Assembly: GCA_022823225.1 (NCBI GenBank)
Contig: JAJDXM010000024.1
Location: 1 to 64,000 of the forward strand
DNA: 64,000 nt
DNA from: Gemmatimonadota bacterium
GTDB taxonomy: Bacteria > Gemmatimonadota > Gemmatimonadetes > Longimicrobiales > Gaopeijiaceae
Reading direction: 5' to 3'
Part shown: positions 22,148 through 29,905 of the stretch, piece after piece
How the letters are laid out: every line of letters begins with the position of its first letter
How positions within the stretch are numbered: the first letter of the stretch is position 1
Notes under the pieces: generated by a model
Told to the model about the DNA's origin: nothing
Databases searched by the model: none
The model's input: only the letters and a program-made list of their open reading frames with translations
Program-made: the position numbers and the translations under genes

Positions 22148-23704
22148 CTACTTTGGCAGTTCGCGGGAGAGCCTCTCGCAGAGCTCTATGGCCGACAGGC
22201 AGAATGATGCGGCGGTGGGCAGGGAGACTTCCTGGCCTTCTCGGTGCTGTCCGAAGTTGCCGACGGAGTGGATGTGATCGACCAGGAGGCAGGTTGGCTT
22301 GCTCACGAACTCCGCGATCCGGTGGGACTGCCTAGTTCCGGTGATGCGGCGGAGAATGCCGCACTGCGGTCCTTGGTCACCGGGAAGCCGACCTCCCTCG
22401 AACACTATTCCAGCGAACTTCCACGCATCCGGTAACGACCTGTCCGGCCCGAGTTCAGCCTTCCAGATCAAGTCCAGGGCGGTTTCGGCAATACTGCGCA
22501 TCCAGACTACGGCACCGTTGGGGTCGGGATGCAGGTCACGGATGGCATTTCGGACGAATCGGGCCAGGTTCGGGTCCGCTCGGGCGACGATCCCTTCGAG
22601 CCGCAGCTCCAGCATCCCCTGAACATTGTCTTCGAAGCGGTCCGGATCGCCGAACAGCCGGTTCAGGTAGGCCACCTGATCCTTGCGCCGGCGAGCATAC
22701 GCCGCCATCAATCCGCATGACGATCGGAGTCCTCCCCGGGATTCCTGAGCAAAACCTCGGAACAAGAGCTCGCGCTTCCGACGCACAGGCACTTCCGTAG
22801 CGCGTGCCTTTCCGGTAGTCGAGAGCTCCGTCAGCGCCGACTGTAGCTCGATCGGGCAGTCGTCCCACAGGGCACGGACGGATTCGAGCGGCTCGTCGGC
22901 CATCTCGCCCGCCACACGATCGACATCGGCCTTCGAAATCGCCTCACTCCCGCGACGCCCAGCGATCAAACGATCCGCCAGCGCGGCGGCCAACACCGGC
23001 ACGCCGCCCGTCCAATTGCGGATCTCCTTCTCCGCCGAGCCATCGACTCTGATCCCCATTGAGGCAAAGGGCGCGAGAAACCCGTGCCAATCTTCGTCCC
23101 CCAATCTGCAGACCCGGAACGGGGGATCGTGGAAGATCTGCCAGAAGTTCGACGTGCGCGACTCCTCGTCTTTGCAGAGGTCATACAATCTGGCTCTGCT
23201 GCCCGTGACAAAGCACAGGCCTCCGATCTGGGCGAGTGTGCGCAGCTCGTCCCAGAGGTTACTCGTGATTCCGAAATCGCCAAGCAGGTGATCGAAGCCG
23301 TCGAGAACCGCCAGCACGCGGCTGCGGCGACCATGGAGATCCTCGAACACGAGCTTGAGGAGATCGGATACTGCTTCGTCGTCGGGCTCCAGGTACTCGG
23401 CCAGATCGGGCTCTTCCTGCGCCAGCGCGTCCTTCATGTGCTCGGCGAACCGGCTTCGGAACTCCGCGTCGGTTCTCGGCGTCTCGAACCTGAGGTCCCA
23501 ATACATAGAAGCGGCGTAGTGGTCCTGCGGGAAGTGCGACGCAAGGTGACTCAACAGGACCGACTTCCCGAAGAGCCGCGGACCCACCACGGAAACGTTG
23601 TAGGGGCTTTTCTTGGTCAAGACGCAAAGCCGGTCGAAGAGCCGCTCACGTCCCAGCATTTGAGGGACCCCCGTCCCAAGTACCTGATAGGGACTGTCAC
23701 TCAT
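22148..23704 (-). CDS. STAND-like ATPase, third gene of putative defence cassette
   Basis: The 518-residue protein opens with MLGRERLFDRL and a P-loop GPRLFGKSVLL at residues 41-51. Walker B is VLAVLDGFDHL (Asp135, Asp138), the D-G-x-D form common in STAND/NACHT NTPases, and it is followed by FVTGSRARL, a sensor-like strand. The middle is helical. The last 40 residues contain HSVGNFGQH, which resembles the R-x-x-G-N-x3-H core of DUF4145/HEPN-type helical domains but with His in place of Arg. I read this as a possible degenerate HEPN-like effector or adaptor. The start overlaps the stop of the giant methyltransferase gene by four bases (ATGA), so it is translationally coupled to it. No known family could be assigned to the whole protein. 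Confidence 0.72.
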   Translation of the reverse strand: MSDSPYQVLGTGVPQMLGRERLFDRLCVLTKKSPYNVSVVGPRLFGKSVLLSHLASHFPQDHYAASMYWDLRFETPRTDAEFRSRFAEHMKDALAQEEPDLAEYLEPDDEAVSDLLKLVFEDLHGRRSRVLAVLDGFDHLLGDFGITSNLWDELRTLAQIGGLCFVTGSRARLYDLCKDEESRTSNFWQIFHDPPFRVCRLGDEDWHGFLAPFASMGIRVDGSAEKEIRNWTGGVPVLAAALADRLIAGRRGSEAISKADVDRVAGEMADEPLESVRALWDDCPIELQSALTELSTTGKARATEVPVRRKRELLFRGFAQESRGGLRSSCGLMAAYARRRKDQVAYLNRLFGDPDRFEDNVQGMLELRLEGIVARADPNLARFVRNAIRDLHPDPNGAVVWMRSIAETALDLIWKAELGPDRSLPDAWKFAGIVFEGGRLPGDQGPQCGILRRITGTRQSHRIAEFVSKPTCLLVDHIHSVGNFGQHREGQEVSLPTAASFCLSAIELCERLSRELPK

Positions 23705-26700
23705 CGCTCATACTCCTCGGCGGTCTGGAAACCTTCGCCCCGGTCGGCTTTTTCGAACTCCTCCACGGCCTTTCTCCGCTGGTCCTCGAAGTCAACGTTT
23801 CTCTCCATCCAGGCGGCCATCAGCGGAATGGCGAGCCGGTATGCCGATTCGCCTCGCGTTCCCTGAAGTTCGAGGAGCTCGAGCTCCCGCAGGAACTCCA
23901 GGTCGTCGCCCAGTCGCTCGCCTCGGTGGAGGGGCACTCCATCGCTGACGAGCCTTGTCTCAAGCAGGTTCAGAGTGGCGGGTGCGCGGTCGCCAAGGTC
24001 CGCGCACAGAGCCAGAAGAAACCGCCGCCGCTCCGATCCAGCATACCCCCACAAAGTACGGAAGTGCTCATTGTCCTCGGTCATCACCCCGGCGCCGGCC
24101 TCCACATCGTCCACGGTGACCGTACGCCTTTGCGACCGTGCGGCGCGCTCGAAGAGGCGATTGCACAGCGACTGGATGAGGAACGGCTGCCGGGCGCACA
24201 GTTCAACCACTCGATCCCTGGCTTCCGGCACGTAGACCAGCCGGCCGTCTACCGGGCGCGTGACGAGCAGGCGGGCATCCTCAAGAGGGAGCGCACTCAC
24301 GGGGATGCGGTGTCCGAAGCCGAAGAGTGCGCTCCAGTACTCTTCCCTAAGCCGCTTGATCCGCCGCGAGCCCGCCAGGACGGCAGACAGCTCCGGGTAG
24401 GTGTGAAGCAGATACCGGATGTTCTCCGGCACCTGCGGGCTTGTGGCGCCGTCGTCGATCCCCTCCTGTAACTTGTCGAACTCGTCGAGCATGAGAAGAA
24501 CGCGCCTCGGCCTGGTGGCCTCGATCACCGCTTGCAGGAAGAGCTCGAAGGTCTCGAACGGCCGGTCTCCCGAGAATGCCCGGCGGAGGGCCTTCACGAA
24601 TGCGACCCGGAATGGTTTCGCGGGGTCGGGGGGATCCGTGTCCGGAATCCATACGCGAACGCCGGCGGCGTGGGCCGCCAATCCCATATCCCGCGCGATC
24701 AGGCGGAAGACTTCGTTTGTTGGCAGCCCATGCTTGCTCGCATGCCCTTCGCCTCCCTGCAAGGAGCAGTTCACCGTCACCCACCCCGGCAACACCTCCG
24801 GATCCTGTAGCCGCTTGAGGATCGAGGTCTTTCCGGTTCGACGGTTGCCCTCCAGCAACACGACGTTCGCGCGGCTGTCGCTGCGTAGTTGCCGACCGAT
24901 TTCAGCGAGCGTCTCCTCTCGTCCGAAAAGCATTTCCTTCCGATCGATCGGATTCCCGACGATGTACGGACTGGTTCCGATCTCCCGGACCCGACCGGCG
25001 GGTCGGCTGTTCCGGACCTCGACCCCTAGGCGCATCTGGCCCTTCGTCTGCTTCCCGTCAAGTAGTGTGGCACGCCAATGAACCGAGAAGCGATAGGGAC
25101 CGGCCTGAGCGTCGGCCGGAATCCGCAGGGGAAGGTTGAGCGTCATGCCGGCGGGAAGGTAAGCGGTCCGCGCTTCTCCGATGTTCGGACGCGTGAACAC
25201 CCCTAGGCCTCGGAACGGAAGGGGCGAGCGGTTCGTGAGGCGGACCTGAACCTCGCTCTGCACATTCGCCGCAACCCAACCCGGCTCGATTTCAGCCTGC
25301 AAGTCCACTTCCGCCAGGATCCGTTCACGTTCGAGGCCGGCGAGGCCGGAGATGCGGCGAGTGATGTCGTGGGCCAACGCGGTGGCGGGCGAAGCCGGGT
25401 CTTCCGGCGACGCGATGCGCTCCAGTTGGAGTGACACCCCGTCCAGGACGGCAAGCCGTTCCGGACCGGGAGGGATGTCGGTCAGACCTTCCAGCGAGAA
25501 AACGGGTTCGGTCACGGTCTCCAGCCAGCGCGACAGTTCCGGAACAGTGCGAACGCCGGGACGGGCGACCTCGTTGCGCAGCGTCCGCAGCGATTTGGCG
25601 ATCCTCTCCAGTTGCCCCGCTCCATCTCCGATGTCTTCGAGTCTCTGGAGTTCCCGGACCTCGGCGGATTCCTCCAACCACTCGACGACCGGGTCCCGCG
25701 TGTTGGTCAGGATACGGACGATTGCCGCGAACGGATCGCCACGGTGGCCGGATACCAGGCTTACGACCCGTTCCTGGAGCTCTGTCGGCGGGACTGGAAC
25801 GGGAAGTGCGCGCAACCTGTCAATCGGAAGATGCTGGACCGTCGCACCGCGAGCGTGACCGCGCATCCACTTCTGGTAGAGATCAGAGGCGAGAACACAC
25901 CTGAGGAATCCCGGCGATACGCCCTCCGTCGCCCGAATGACCACAATACCCTGACCAGCGACGGCGGCACGCGCATCCAACATGTCATCCAACACGCCTA
26001 CTTTTCCGATGGTGCCAGACATTGTAAGGAGAATGTCGCCTGAGCGCAGTGGCTCAGGCCGTGATTCCGTACGTATCCTACTCTCCGTTTTCAGGTCTTG
26101 GGGCAACCACTCAATCGCTGGCGGGACCCGTACACCGAAGTCGTGAATGTCCGCTACACGCAGTAGGACAAGCGCACTCTCCCCGTCTTCAGCAGAGACG
26201 AGGCGCACTTTGGCGTCATTGGGTTCGTAACCGACAAACGTATTCCGATAGGACCTGCCCGCCCTAATGTGCGCGACGCTCCCTAGCGGTGCAGTCTCTA
26301 CCGTGGGACTATCTTGGCGGAGCCGCGTCAACTTGCGTGCGAGAGCCTCCTCGCCGGTCCTCTTTGCGGCCATGTCCCAGTTGCGCTCCTCTAACACTCG
26401 CACTGGCATATTCCACAAGTTTCCGTCTGGTTGGCCTTCGCGAAACTTCACCGCGATGCCGTGAGGTGTCGGACGCAGGTCATCGGGAACGCTCATGAAA
26501 CGAATGGCCGATGCTGGTCGGGACCGACGAAAGACGAGGAGATTCACTCCCGTCGTTGCGTAGGGGACGGCGGCAGCCCACCTCCGATGAGGTATCGAGA
26601 CTACACCTTCTACGGTGTACGTTGACAACAACTCACGTCGAATATCGCGATCAGGCCCGGGACGGTACAGGACATGGTCGGGGAGAGCCACGACCGCGCG

Positions 26701-27747
26701 ACCGCCCGGATTCAACGATGTCATTACATGTTGGAGAAAGCGCATCGCGATCTCCGTCGTGGCTATCGGTATGGCATGTTGGTCAACAGGACGCACGTGG
26801 CCCCACGGCGGATGGGCGACGACATAGTCGGCGCCCACGGAAAACGCCCCCGTCGCAAACTCGCCGTCCAGCGCGTCCCGAAGCTCTAGGCGTGGATGCC
26901 AAGCACCCGCGAGCGCTGCCTGAGTTGCCCCCACAATGTAGGCGTGTGGGTCGAGCTCAACTCCCAATACCTCACCACTAGCAGCTCGCGAATCCTGTCG
27001 GGGTGCCGCGCCCTTCAACCCGGATTGCGCCTTGCGCACCGCTGTCGCCAGCAGGCCTCCGGTCCCGAAACATGGATCGTAGATGCGTCCGCCGGGCTCA
27101 GGGTCCAGAACTTCCACCATTAGGGCAGACAGTGGTGGCACTGTGATCGTGTCTCCCCCGACAGTCATATGTACAAGGGACTCGATGATCTTCCCCGCCT
27201 CCCTGCGGCCGATTGCAGAACTCGTATCAAAGCAGGCGACCCAACTGACCAATCGGTCCAAGTGGGTTGGTGGAATGGTGTGGCAGGCCGTCAGCACATC
27301 CGCGAGGGGCCTCAGCATCGATCGCCAATCGCCGCTTGGCGCACCTTGAAGGGTGGGCGCGAGCTGCCGACGGAAGAAATCGGAGAGATCCCGTCCTCGC
27401 AGACGACTCCACTTTGACCAATGCTGATCGGGTGTGAGTAGAGGTCGACGGCTCGCGACTTCCGCCCCTCCAGACAACCCCGTGCCGGCACCGAGGTGCT
27501 CCATCCAACGGAGCAGAAGCAGAGCAGCAAAAGGGACGACGACGGAATCGAAGGCACCGCCGATCGTGGTGCGATGGCCAGCAGACCCGGTTTCCCGCTC
27601 CCCGAATTCCAAGTGGTGTTCGAAGAAATCCAGGTGATCCTCCGAGACGGCCATGAGCCGGTCCAGTCGATCCGGGATCCCGGTCGGCAATGGTCCTTCC
27701 TGAATGCCCTGTCCTCCTGGCACGCTCACTTGACTCCTGTCCTCCAT
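23701..27747 (-). CDS. Fused adenine methyltransferase - HsdS-like TRD - AAA/STAND ATPase
   Basis: About 1,348 residues join parts usually found in separate proteins. Residues 30-200 form an HsdM-like helical region; 200-420 hold an N6-adenine methyltransferase with motif I IYDPCFGTGG and motif IV read as AHPPWG, where Asn/Asp/Ser is expected instead of His. Residues 486-670 resemble one HsdS target recognition domain (APLGSVAHIRAGRSY, LRSGDILLTMSGTIGKVG). A helical linker and a beta domain (824-914) precede an ATPase with LFGREE, Walker A GNRRTGKTS (968-976), Walker B MLDEFDKL and VLAGSRRIK. The frame is open up to a TTG at 27810, but that codon lies inside a sigma-54 promoter, so I chose the ATG at 27747; a GTG at 27729 after AGGAG is also possible. 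No nuclease domain is visible. Confidence 0.82.
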   Translation of the reverse strand: MEDRSQVSVPGGQGIQEGPLPTGIPDRLDRLMAVSEDHLDFFEHHLEFGERETGSAGHRTTIGGAFDSVVVPFAALLLLRWMEHLGAGTGLSGGAEVASRRPLLTPDQHWSKWSRLRGRDLSDFFRRQLAPTLQGAPSGDWRSMLRPLADVLTACHTIPPTHLDRLVSWVACFDTSSAIGRREAGKIIESLVHMTVGGDTITVPPLSALMVEVLDPEPGGRIYDPCFGTGGLLATAVRKAQSGLKGAAPRQDSRAASGEVLGVELDPHAYIVGATQAALAGAWHPRLELRDALDGEFATGAFSVGADYVVAHPPWGHVRPVDQHAIPIATTEIAMRFLQHVMTSLNPGGRAVVALPDHVLYRPGPDRDIRRELLSTYTVEGVVSIPHRRWAAAVPYATTGVNLLVFRRSRPASAIRFMSVPDDLRPTPHGIAVKFREGQPDGNLWNMPVRVLEERNWDMAAKRTGEEALARKLTRLRQDSPTVETAPLGSVAHIRAGRSYRNTFVGYEPNDAKVRLVSAEDGESALVLLRVADIHDFGVRVPPAIEWLPQDLKTESRIRTESRPEPLRSGDILLTMSGTIGKVGVLDDMLDARAAVAGQGIVVIRATEGVSPGFLRCVLASDLYQKWMRGHARGATVQHLPIDRLRALPVPVPPTELQERVVSLVSGHRGDPFAAIVRILTNTRDPVVEWLEESAEVRELQRLEDIGDGAGQLERIAKSLRTLRNEVARPGVRTVPELSRWLETVTEPVFSLEGLTDIPPGPERLAVLDGVSLQLERIASPEDPASPATALAHDITRRISGLAGLERERILAEVDLQAEIEPGWVAANVQSEVQVRLTNRSPLPFRGLGVFTRPNIGEARTAYLPAGMTLNLPLRIPADAQAGPYRFSVHWRATLLDGKQTKGQMRLGVEVRNSRPAGRVREIGTSPYIVGNPIDRKEMLFGREETLAEIGRQLRSDSRANVVLLEGNRRTGKTSILKRLQDPEVLPGWVTVNCSLQGGEGHASKHGLPTNEVFRLIARDMGLAAHAAGVRVWIPDTDPPDPAKPFRVAFVKALRRAFSGDRPFETFELFLQAVIEATRPRRVLLMLDEFDKLQEGIDDGATSPQVPENIRYLLHTYPELSAVLAGSRRIKRLREEYWSALFGFGHRIPVSALPLEDARLLVTRPVDGRLVYVPEARDRVVELCARQPFLIQSLCNRLFERAARSQRRTVTVDDVEAGAGVMTEDNEHFRTLWGYAGSERRRFLLALCADLGDRAPATLNLLETRLVSDGVPLHRGERLGDDLEFLRELELLELQGTRGESAYRLAIPLMAAWMERNVDFEDQRRKAVEEFEKADRGEGFQTAEEYER

Positions 27748-27794
27748 CCGCTTGTCATCCTGCGGTCGATTCCGCACTCCTACACCCTCCTCTC

Positions 27795-27810
27795 GCAATA
27801 CCCGTGCCAA
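27795..27810 (-). promoter_or_regulatory. Sigma-54 (-24/-12) promoter of the methyltransferase-ATPase genes
   Basis: Read on the minus strand, TTGGCACG-GGTA-TTGC matches the sigma-54 consensus (YTGGCACG-N4-TTGC) at every defined position. The GG of the -24 element is at 27808-27807 and the GC of the -12 element at 27796-27795, the required spacing, which predicts transcription from about 27783. It begins one base after the stop codon of a sigma-54 activator gene and lies directly upstream of that activator's presumed targets. Confidence 0.85.
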
Positions 27811-29316
27811 TCACCGCTCGACCCCATAGCGCTTCAGCCAGTTGGTCAGCGTCTGGTAGCTGGGCAGACCGACCAAGCGCGCCGCGCGCGTCTTGTTTCC
27901 ACCCGTCTCGTCGAGAGCACGCTCGAGGTAGTGTCGGGAGACTCGAGCCAGCAAATCCGGCAGACTGAAGCCGTTTTCCAGGGGCCGGTCCAATATCTTG
28001 CCTGCGTTGGAGCCGATCGGCGGAAGCAACGATTCCCGGACATCCTCGGCTCCGATCTCGGGTCCTGGGGTCCAGATGGCCAGACGGTGAAGCGTATTCA
28101 CGAGCTCGCGGACGTTGCCGGGCCATGAATGGGATAACAGAAGTGTTCTTGCAGAAACAGAAAGATATTTGTATTCCTGTCCTGATTCCCGCTCGTGTTC
28201 CTCGTTGACCCGATCCAGCAGACGGTCGATGAGCAGATTCAGATCTCCCGGCCTCTCCCGTAGCGGCGGCAACCGCAGGCCCGCGACGGCGATGCGGTAG
28301 AACAGGTCGTCACGGAAGCGACCCTCGGCGATCTCCACGGTGAGAGTCCGGTTCGTCGCGGCTACTATTCGGACATCGACTCCGACCGGGCTTGTCGACC
28401 CGACCCGCAGGACGGTTCCCTCTTGAAGCGTGCGCAGGAGCTTGACCTGAGCGGGTAGCGGAAGCTCACCGACCTCGTCGAGAAAGAGGGTGCCCCCGCT
28501 GGCGGCCTCGAAGTGTCCCCGTCTGCGCCGGTCCGCACCGGTAAACGCCCCCTTCTCGTGTCCGAAGAGCTCGGACTCCACGAGTTCGGCTGGAATCGCA
28601 CCGCAGTTCACCGCTTTGAACGGCTTGCCTCGACGGGGACTGGCGCGGTGTATCGCGCGAGCGAAGAGCTCCTTTCCCGTTCCGGATTCGCCCTCGATAA
28701 GCACGGGAACCGACCGAGGAGCAACCCGGCGGGCCTTGCCGATCACGCGCGTCATGACGTCGCTGCGATGAATAATGTCGGCGAACTCGGGCGCGTCGGG
28801 AGGAAGCCCCGCGGTCAGGCTCCGAAGGCGCTCATCGGGACCTTTCAGCAGATCGGGAAGGAACTCGGCCGATATGTCGAATGGAACGGAGGCAGTCCGC
28901 ACCCCGTGCTTTCGCGACGACTCGATCAGTTCGGCCGGAAAGCGGGTCTTGGCCAGAATGATCCAGACCGCCGCCATCGCCGGAGTACCGGGACTGAGGT
29001 GGAACGTGAGCCCCGCGCGCTTTCCATAATGCTCGAGCGACTCGGTCAGGACACGGACCGCGACCTGGTAGATCTCACCGAACTGCGTGGGACCCGACAG
29101 CGGTTCGTAGCAGGCTGTGACCGTAGCCTGGACCCGCGGACGAAGCCAATCCAGGAACGGAGCGACATCCTCCTTGGGATAGTCGCTGATCAGAACGGCC
29201 CGGGCGTAAGAGCGCTCTGTGAGCGCCTGTGCGATGGGCCCCGATCCGGCATGGGCTTCATTTGTAGGGGCGCTGAGATCGGCTTGCCCGATCCAGCTGA
29301 TCAGGAGGTTCTTCAT
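27811..29316 (-). CDS. RtcR-like sigma-54-dependent activator with CARF-type sensor domain
   Basis: The 501-residue protein has three parts. Residues 1-160 form a Rossmann-like sensor whose segment [20 protein letters not shown] and following [10 protein letters not shown] parallel the CARF domain of RtcR (the H-(I/L)-T-x-GT motif). Residues 180-410 are a complete sigma-54 AAA+ domain with Walker A GESGTGKE, the sigma-54-contacting loop GAFTGA (256-261), Walker B LFLDE and [11 protein letters not shown]. The C-terminus is a Fis-type HTH ([18 protein letters not shown]). RtcR is known to respond to RNA-end ligands and to switch on RNA-repair genes; here no RtcA/RtcB is near. The gene lies immediately upstream of a sigma-54 promoter driving the methyltransferase fusion, so a ligand-gated defence switch is the likely role. 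Confidence 0.87.
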
Positions 29317-29905
29317 GGCTCCGCCAAACTACAAGTCACTTTGCTATTACGCAAGGAATCTTACGCTCGATCGCGCCGTGGGCTCCGGCGAGCCCGAGGC
29401 CCTTCAGGGTTCGACTCGAAATACCCGCCCCGCCCATTCAATGCCTCGCCAACTGCCCGAGACAATCCAGATTGTGCACGGGCCGATGCTCGTCCACCTC
29501 CACCGCGTACGAGAACAAGATCCAGACTGCGGGTGCGCCGCCGCGCGTCGTGGGCGGGCCCCTGCACCCCCAACCCGTCACGGAACGACTCCAGGGAAAG
29601 TGCGCGGGGACGGGCGCCGGAAGACGTCGACTCTTCCGCCAGGAGCGGTTCACCGCATCGGGATCGGGCGACGACGTTTCAGAGGCAATGCGTGAGCACA
29701 TGGCAGCCATGATAGAAGGCCTTCCGGCCGAACGCGACTCTTCGTCGAATCCTGTTGTTCCGTACTCCGAGACATCCCGTGCCTCCGCTCCCCCGGACTC
29801 CGGAAGGGTTGCTAAACTACTGTCCAGGGAAATCGGGGGCACTATATTGGATGCATCGTCGAGTAGGGACTTATTCCGCAGGCTCCTCAGTTTGCGGTTC
29901 CGATC
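29317..29905. other. Intergenic region upstream of the defence-like cassette, 589 bp
   Basis: This separates the divergent sigma-54 regulator and M20 deacylase genes. Short open frames occur on both strands (for example a plus-strand frame 29472-29909), but their composition and lack of recognisable motifs do not support a gene. The part near 29317-29370 and 29805-29905 is relatively AT-rich and should contain the promoters; a TATATT at 29843-29848 could be the -10 of the M20 gene. No sigma-54 site is seen here. Confidence 0.45.

Follow-up and report, generated by a model that had tools for sequence, protein, structure and literature searches.

The sequence evidence strongly supports the view that a 16-nucleotide element at positions 27810-27795 (minus strand) of the window, i.e. 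of the whole stretch of 64,000 nucleotides that was analysed, is a true sigma-54 promoter, located between the gene of an enhancer-binding activator and its target genes. The original prediction had placed such a promoter at this site, and the claim is borne out by the presence of rpoN in the genome, the GAFTGA loop of the activator, the genome-wide uniqueness of the element and the conservation of its position across phyla. The fullest explanation of the data, which we regard as very probable, is that the element serves as promoter for a defence cassette which is both inducible and self-contained, with tandem dyads within the activator gene and ahead of it acting as enhancers. The features concerned are as follows:

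29350-29365, minus strand: upstream dyad A, CGTAAGATTCCTTGCG, 34-49 bp before the activator start (upstream dyad PWM, genome pattern search)
29330-29345, minus strand: upstream dyad B, AGCAAAGTGACTTGTA, 20 bp from dyad A (upstream dyad PWM, genome pattern search)
27811-29316, minus strand: activator gene, encoding an enhancer-binding protein of 501 aa with CARF, AAA+ and Fis-type HTH domains and a GAFTGA loop (PADLOC, Pfam)
28852-29316, minus strand: N-terminal CARF sensor domain of the activator, approximately residues 1-155 (AlphaFold2, Foldseek)
28158-28173, minus strand: intragenic dyad 1, TACAAATATCTTTCTG, candidate enhancer at residues 382-387 (upstream-trained PWM; pair shuffle p ≤ 0.001)
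28138-28153, minus strand: intragenic dyad 2, TGCAAGAACACTTCTG, 20 bp from dyad 1 (PWM, shuffle, GC3 dip)
27795-27810, minus strand: sigma-54 -24/-12 promoter element (consensus match, uniqueness, conservation near the stop codon)
27783, minus strand: predicted +1 (sigma-54 spacing rule, 12 nt downstream of the -12 C)
23701-27729, minus strand: first target gene (27729 being its probable start), a fusion of an N6-methyltransferase, an HsdS-type specificity domain and an AAA ATPase (Pfam N6_Mtase, Methylase_S, AAA_16)
22148-23704, minus strand: second target gene, an AAA/NACHT-like ATPase with a 4-base overlap with the first (Pfam; homologue in locus L138)

The element, TTGGCACG-GGTA-TTGC, matches the sigma-54 consensus at 12 of 12 positions, with the GG (-24) and the GC (-12) at canonical spacing. 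Its first base (27810) directly adjoins the TGA of the activator (27813-27811), exactly where the original prediction had it begin; around position 27,800 the minus strand runs through GAGCGGTGA, TTGGCACGGGTATTGC and GAGAGGAGGGTG, and in a second reading across the end of the activator through GTCGAGCGGTGA, TTGGCACGGGTATTGC and GAGAGGAGGGTG. An exact match to TTGGCACGNNNNTTGC occurs once in the window, neither strand of which holds a second sigma-54 site of comparable quality, and the element at 27810-27795 is the sole 12/12 match in the whole genome (4,188,171 bases) in the pattern searches that were used for the genome-wide checks of promoter and tandem dyads. Matches with one mismatch are close to the control level (15 genome-wide, as opposed to 11 for a reversed control pattern), so that only the perfect match is informative and the others were left out of the evidence. 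The search for rpoN that had been proposed found the gene on another contig of the same genome (Sigma54_DBD, 206.7 bits, 4e-61).

The activator is matched over residues 3-500 by the PADLOC model RtcR_PspF2 CARF_AAA_HTH (PDLC01995; 645 bits), and Pfam assigns Sigma54_activat (AAA+) to residues 181-346 and HTH_8 (Fis-type HTH) to residues 456-497, as well as the lid. The GAFTGA loop, which contacts sigma-54, is intact in the translation. An AlphaFold2 model of residues 1-176 (pLDDT 79) has its best Foldseek matches in the PDB among the CARF proteins Csm6, Can2, Card1, Cdn1 and VC1899, so that the modelled N-terminus qualifies as a CARF fold. Assignment to RtcR proper was rejected, since the score of 328 bits misses the equivalog cut-off of NCBIfam NF038308 (650 bits) and rtcBA is not adjacent; the neighbours are a methyltransferase and an ATPase, and RtcB is encoded on another contig.

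The family of the activator is distributed sporadically, being found in 4 of the 395 genomes from the phylum to which the window belongs and in 24 of 399 and 15 of 395 genomes of two other groups, with some of the matches across groups weak or partial. It is present on plasmids and viral contigs also. A search for the CARF domain in a collection of phage records gave no match. For comparison of the promoter region, 50 loci were aligned on the activator stop codon, and counts were taken from the 35 non-redundant members (<80% identity) with a complete gene; sites were scored with weights set from the known consensus rather than a published matrix, and those with at least 12 bits were considered strong. 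In 20 of the 35 members, a strong sigma-54 site is found no more than 25 nt from the activator's stop codon. Among 76 generic enhancer-binding activators only 1 has such a site, and none of the 118 stop codons of other genes in the family loci does; the general background is 0.06 such sites per kb. The element is thus conserved in homologous loci, as had been proposed for examination, and this conservation also supports the claim that the target genes form a separate sigma-54 unit. In many members the first base of the -24 box falls at a position from -1 to +6 relative to the stop codon (+0 in L086; +2 in L161, L163 and L003; -1, overlapping the TGA, in L141), and the promoter lies further out, at +79 and +99, in L088 and L087, respectively. 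The position of the stop promoter is conserved across phyla and in front of unrelated downstream genes, and its retention with unrelated cargo is hard to account for except by function. Outside the family the same layout is seen in L008, a generic enhancer-binding protein of Dyella, with a sigma-54 site of 17.5 bits located 20 nt ahead of the stop codon.

The two 16-bp dyads (TACAAG-N4-CTTGTA-like), arranged in a 20-bp register, are found 5' of many activator genes of the family; in the window, both the pair within the activator gene and the pair ahead of it had escaped the earlier reading. A PWM was trained solely on the sites 5' of activator genes and showed a clear optimum at a spacing of 20 bp. 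When it was applied to the coding sequences, its best match in most members fell on homologous codons (residues 382-393 in the window), approximately 355-400 nt before the stop codon; the pair of the window lies ~330-363 nt ahead of it. An intragenic pair of at least 10 bits is present in 25 of 35 family members, and in 20 of 35 it is seldom equalled (p ≤ 0.005) by 1000 synonymous shuffles that preserve protein and codon usage. By contrast, none of 78 generic activators reaches 10 bits in the same aligned region, where their median is -19 bits. In an alignment of 21 GC-rich family members, the GC3 minimum of the gene coincides with the intragenic pair, being centred on residue 388 (-0.29, with an sd of 0.06). 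Between the window and L138 the conservation of the dyad codons is not raised (5/10, as opposed to 0.57 elsewhere), and the motif itself is retained. The degenerate tandem pattern occurs at two places only in the 4.19 Mb genome, one inside the activator gene and the other upstream of it. Taken at the level of sequence, these comparisons demonstrate that the intragenic pair is under constraint as DNA. The HTH domain of the activator probably binds the dyads, which would then act as enhancers.

The location of the dyads follows that of the promoters. An intragenic dyad and a stop promoter are both present in 22 members and both absent in 8, with 5 discordant (Fisher 2.6e-4); this co-occurrence is not phylogenetically independent, only three independent pairs being supported on the tree, too few for a sign test. 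L087 and L088 have a promoter and lack the intragenic dyad: in L088 the tandem pair has been relocated to the stop codon, ahead of the promoter at +79, and in L087 similar dyads, 19-20 bp apart, lie just past the stop codon, ahead of the promoter at +99. Several loci that have no stop promoter, among them L002, L140, L152, L164 and L170, carry a sigma-54 site of divergent orientation, which lies 127-168 bp ahead of the start of the activator and 61-111 bp from the upstream dyads, against a background of 0.5% per 200 bp. The divergent genes at these or similar sites include those for ARPP-1 (L162, L170 and L173) and SIR2 (L141). ARPP-1 (PF20208) lies divergently upstream of the activator at L162:10803-11753, L170:10845-11870 and L173:388-1386, and may be a second target of the upstream enhancer. 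A promoter of either type, stop or divergent (the latter at a laxer threshold of 9.5 bits), is present in 31 of 35 members, and neither is present in the remaining 4 (L151, L158, L165 and L166). L151 and L152 belong to one genome, in which two RtcR_PspF2-like activators ~15 kb apart face each other across one hsdRMS operon; both have upstream dyads and no stop promoter. In the window, no divergent sigma-54 promoter was found near the upstream dyads, so that the upstream pair may have another role there.

The first target gene most probably starts at the GTG at 27729: a GGAG-type ribosome site accompanies this GTG-AGC, and the GTG-AGC recurs in L138, the closest relative. Its open frame reaches back to 27810, and the original prediction had excluded the TTG at this position as the start of the methyltransferase. 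For the sigma-54 transcript this holds; on a read-through transcript coupled translation is possible, since the frame is open through the promoter both in the window and in L138. The scan recognised neither a terminator-like site between the activator and the target genes, which follow without a gap, nor a sigma-70-like promoter for the activator, so that read-through from the activator is possible. Expression of the activator independently of, and upstream of, the target unit is plausible.

The Methylase_S match of the first target scores 23.3 bits (cut-off 22), in agreement with an HsdS-type domain, and a Pfam search of both target genes for an HsdR translocase-nuclease domain found none. 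Motif IV of the methyltransferase reads HPPW (~residues 335-338 of the open frame 23701-27810) and deviates from (N/D/S)PP(Y/F/W), whereas all related methyltransferases in the family loci have NPPF, NPPW or NPPY; this sequence difference suggests that the first target is a methylation-dead reader protein. Classification of the operon as Type I R-M was rejected on account of the absent HsdR and the HPPW motif, and classification as MADS on account of scores far from the NCBIfam cut-offs (38.8 vs 720 bits for MAD2, 42.1 vs 400 bits for MAD5). In L138 the first gene behind the promoter is a 68% homologue of the second ATPase of the window and the methyltransferase fusion is missing, which shows that members of one genus can carry different cargo behind this switch. 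In most family loci the cargo is hsdRMS, while L090 and L094 have VWA-PP2C-kinase-helicase clusters (TerY-P/CoCoNuT-like), L154 has bpMoxR, L171 a KAP NTPase and Hhe, and L173 an Old/GajA-like gene. In L091, from the Azotobacter plasmid pAcX50d, the promoter is intact and the annotated hsdM is in short pieces, so that the cargo appears to have decayed. An anti-phage role of the target genes would fit this setting.

Sequence analysis thus documents the promoter, the sigma factor, the architecture of the activator, the family-wide conservation and the dyads, and the following mechanism is proposed. The activator, with its CARF sensor, AAA+ motor with GAFTGA and Fis-type HTH, would be produced at a basal level, and its HTH would bind the tandem dyads, both the pair inside its own coding sequence and the pair upstream of its own start. 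The CARF domain would sense a signal of infection or stress, probably a nucleotide or RNA-derived one, and the ligand would release the AAA+ ring. A loop of ~330 bp would then bring the AAA+ hexamer at the intragenic pair into contact with the sigma-54 polymerase waiting at the promoter behind the stop codon, and by melting this promoter the hexamer would switch on the two downstream genes. A search of the genome for Cas10, a source of cyclic oligoadenylates, gave no match, which makes it improbable that the inducer is a type III CRISPR signal of the genome's own making. RNA ends serve as the inducing signal for RtcR (PMC9650030, PMC7790460), and by analogy the ligand may be RNA ends or another nucleotide signal.

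The strongest competitor of this scheme, although still improbable, accepts the promoter and assigns the dyads to another regulator, or to autoregulation of the activator only, with the activator driving the promoter from elsewhere, e.g. from the upstream dyads through a loop of ~1.5 kb. It can draw on the upstream dyads of the window, which stand without a divergent sigma-54 promoter, and on the members in which one dyad pair or the other is missing. However, the dyads adjoin whichever sigma-54 promoter a locus has, and do so only in the family of the activator, and the degenerate tandem pattern has no further match in the genome. Far less likely is that the intragenic dyads reflect protein conservation only, i.e. 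the codons for a conserved helix before the WPGNVREL motif. The region does encode a stretch (K-x-L-S...A-R-x-L-L) that is fairly conserved in the family, but shuffles that keep the protein and the codon usage seldom reach the score, generic activators are at a median of -19 bits in the same region, and no other part of the gene shows such a GC3 dip, so that this possibility is largely refuted.

There is hardly any room for chance resemblance, according to which the 16-mer is no promoter and the target genes form one operon with the activator. The abutting genes and the lack of a recognised terminator between them would agree with a single operon, but the perfect match is unique genome-wide, the general background of sites of at least 12 bits is 0.06 per kb, and the idea is refuted by the fact that homologues have kept the element in this position although the genes that follow are unrelated.

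Parts of this arrangement have precedents. CARF-NtrC proteins beside R-M systems were described by Makarova et al. (2014; PMC4012209), who predicted sigma-54 activation of the neighbouring R-M genes, and the activator resembles the RtcR_PspF2 group (PDLC01995; PMC4012209) in family, architecture, restriction-type neighbours and the predicted role as sigma-54 activator of downstream genes. The position of the promoter, the enhancer motif and the intragenic enhancer are, however, undescribed for this family in the literature examined. RtcR of E. coli and Salmonella is a CARF-AAA-HTH activator of rtcBA that acts via sigma-54 and an upstream activation sequence (PMC9650030); the window has a sigma-54 activator of the same type in common with it, but the targets are other than rtcBA and the promoter lies behind the activator's own stop codon. 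In the passages concerned of the CoCoNuT study (PMC11090510), RtcR homologues head defence superoperons: an RtcR-like gene is followed on its 3' side by a defence cluster transcribed in the same direction, in many cases with Type I R-M or TerY-P genes, and L090 and L094 resemble these. The same passages do not define the sigma-54 promoter and enhancers, and, in contrast to the clusters they describe, the window has no McrB/McrC-type genes behind its promoter. Sigma-54 promoters and activator sites within genes have been described, and in part tested, in work on Nla28 in Myxococcus (PMC7910581, PMC9765219) and by sigma-54 ChIP in E. coli (PMC4591121). These sites likewise lie in the coding sequence of upstream genes, but in the window that role falls to the activator's own gene, and the layout is conserved in a family that spans several phyla, with targets that are interchangeable. 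An activator family with an enhancer in its own reading frame and a target promoter flush with the stop codon is undescribed in the open-access literature searched, and priority is uncertain.

A general prediction on CARF-NtrC proteins and sigma-54 is thereby converted into exact, testable coordinates of promoter and enhancers, and the two short DNA signatures can be used to find and rank such loci. While finding enhancers within coding sequence was regarded as precluded by coding conservation in a study of the sigma-54 regulome (PMC4641369), the codon-shuffle controls offer a computational route to them. On balance, we favour the idea that the gene of ~1.5 kb is a portable, plug-in immunity switch with its own sensor, motor, in-frame enhancer and exit promoter at the stop codon, such that any cluster placed behind it would come under CARF/sigma-54 control. 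If so, the second, upstream enhancer can serve a divergent target, and the cassette, which is carried on chromosomes, plasmids and viral contigs, fronts cargo of the Type I R-M, TerY-P/CoCoNuT-like, MoxR-vWA, KAP/Hhe and methyltransferase-ATPase types. This suggests that restriction-type and other defence systems may be inducible via a common cassette.
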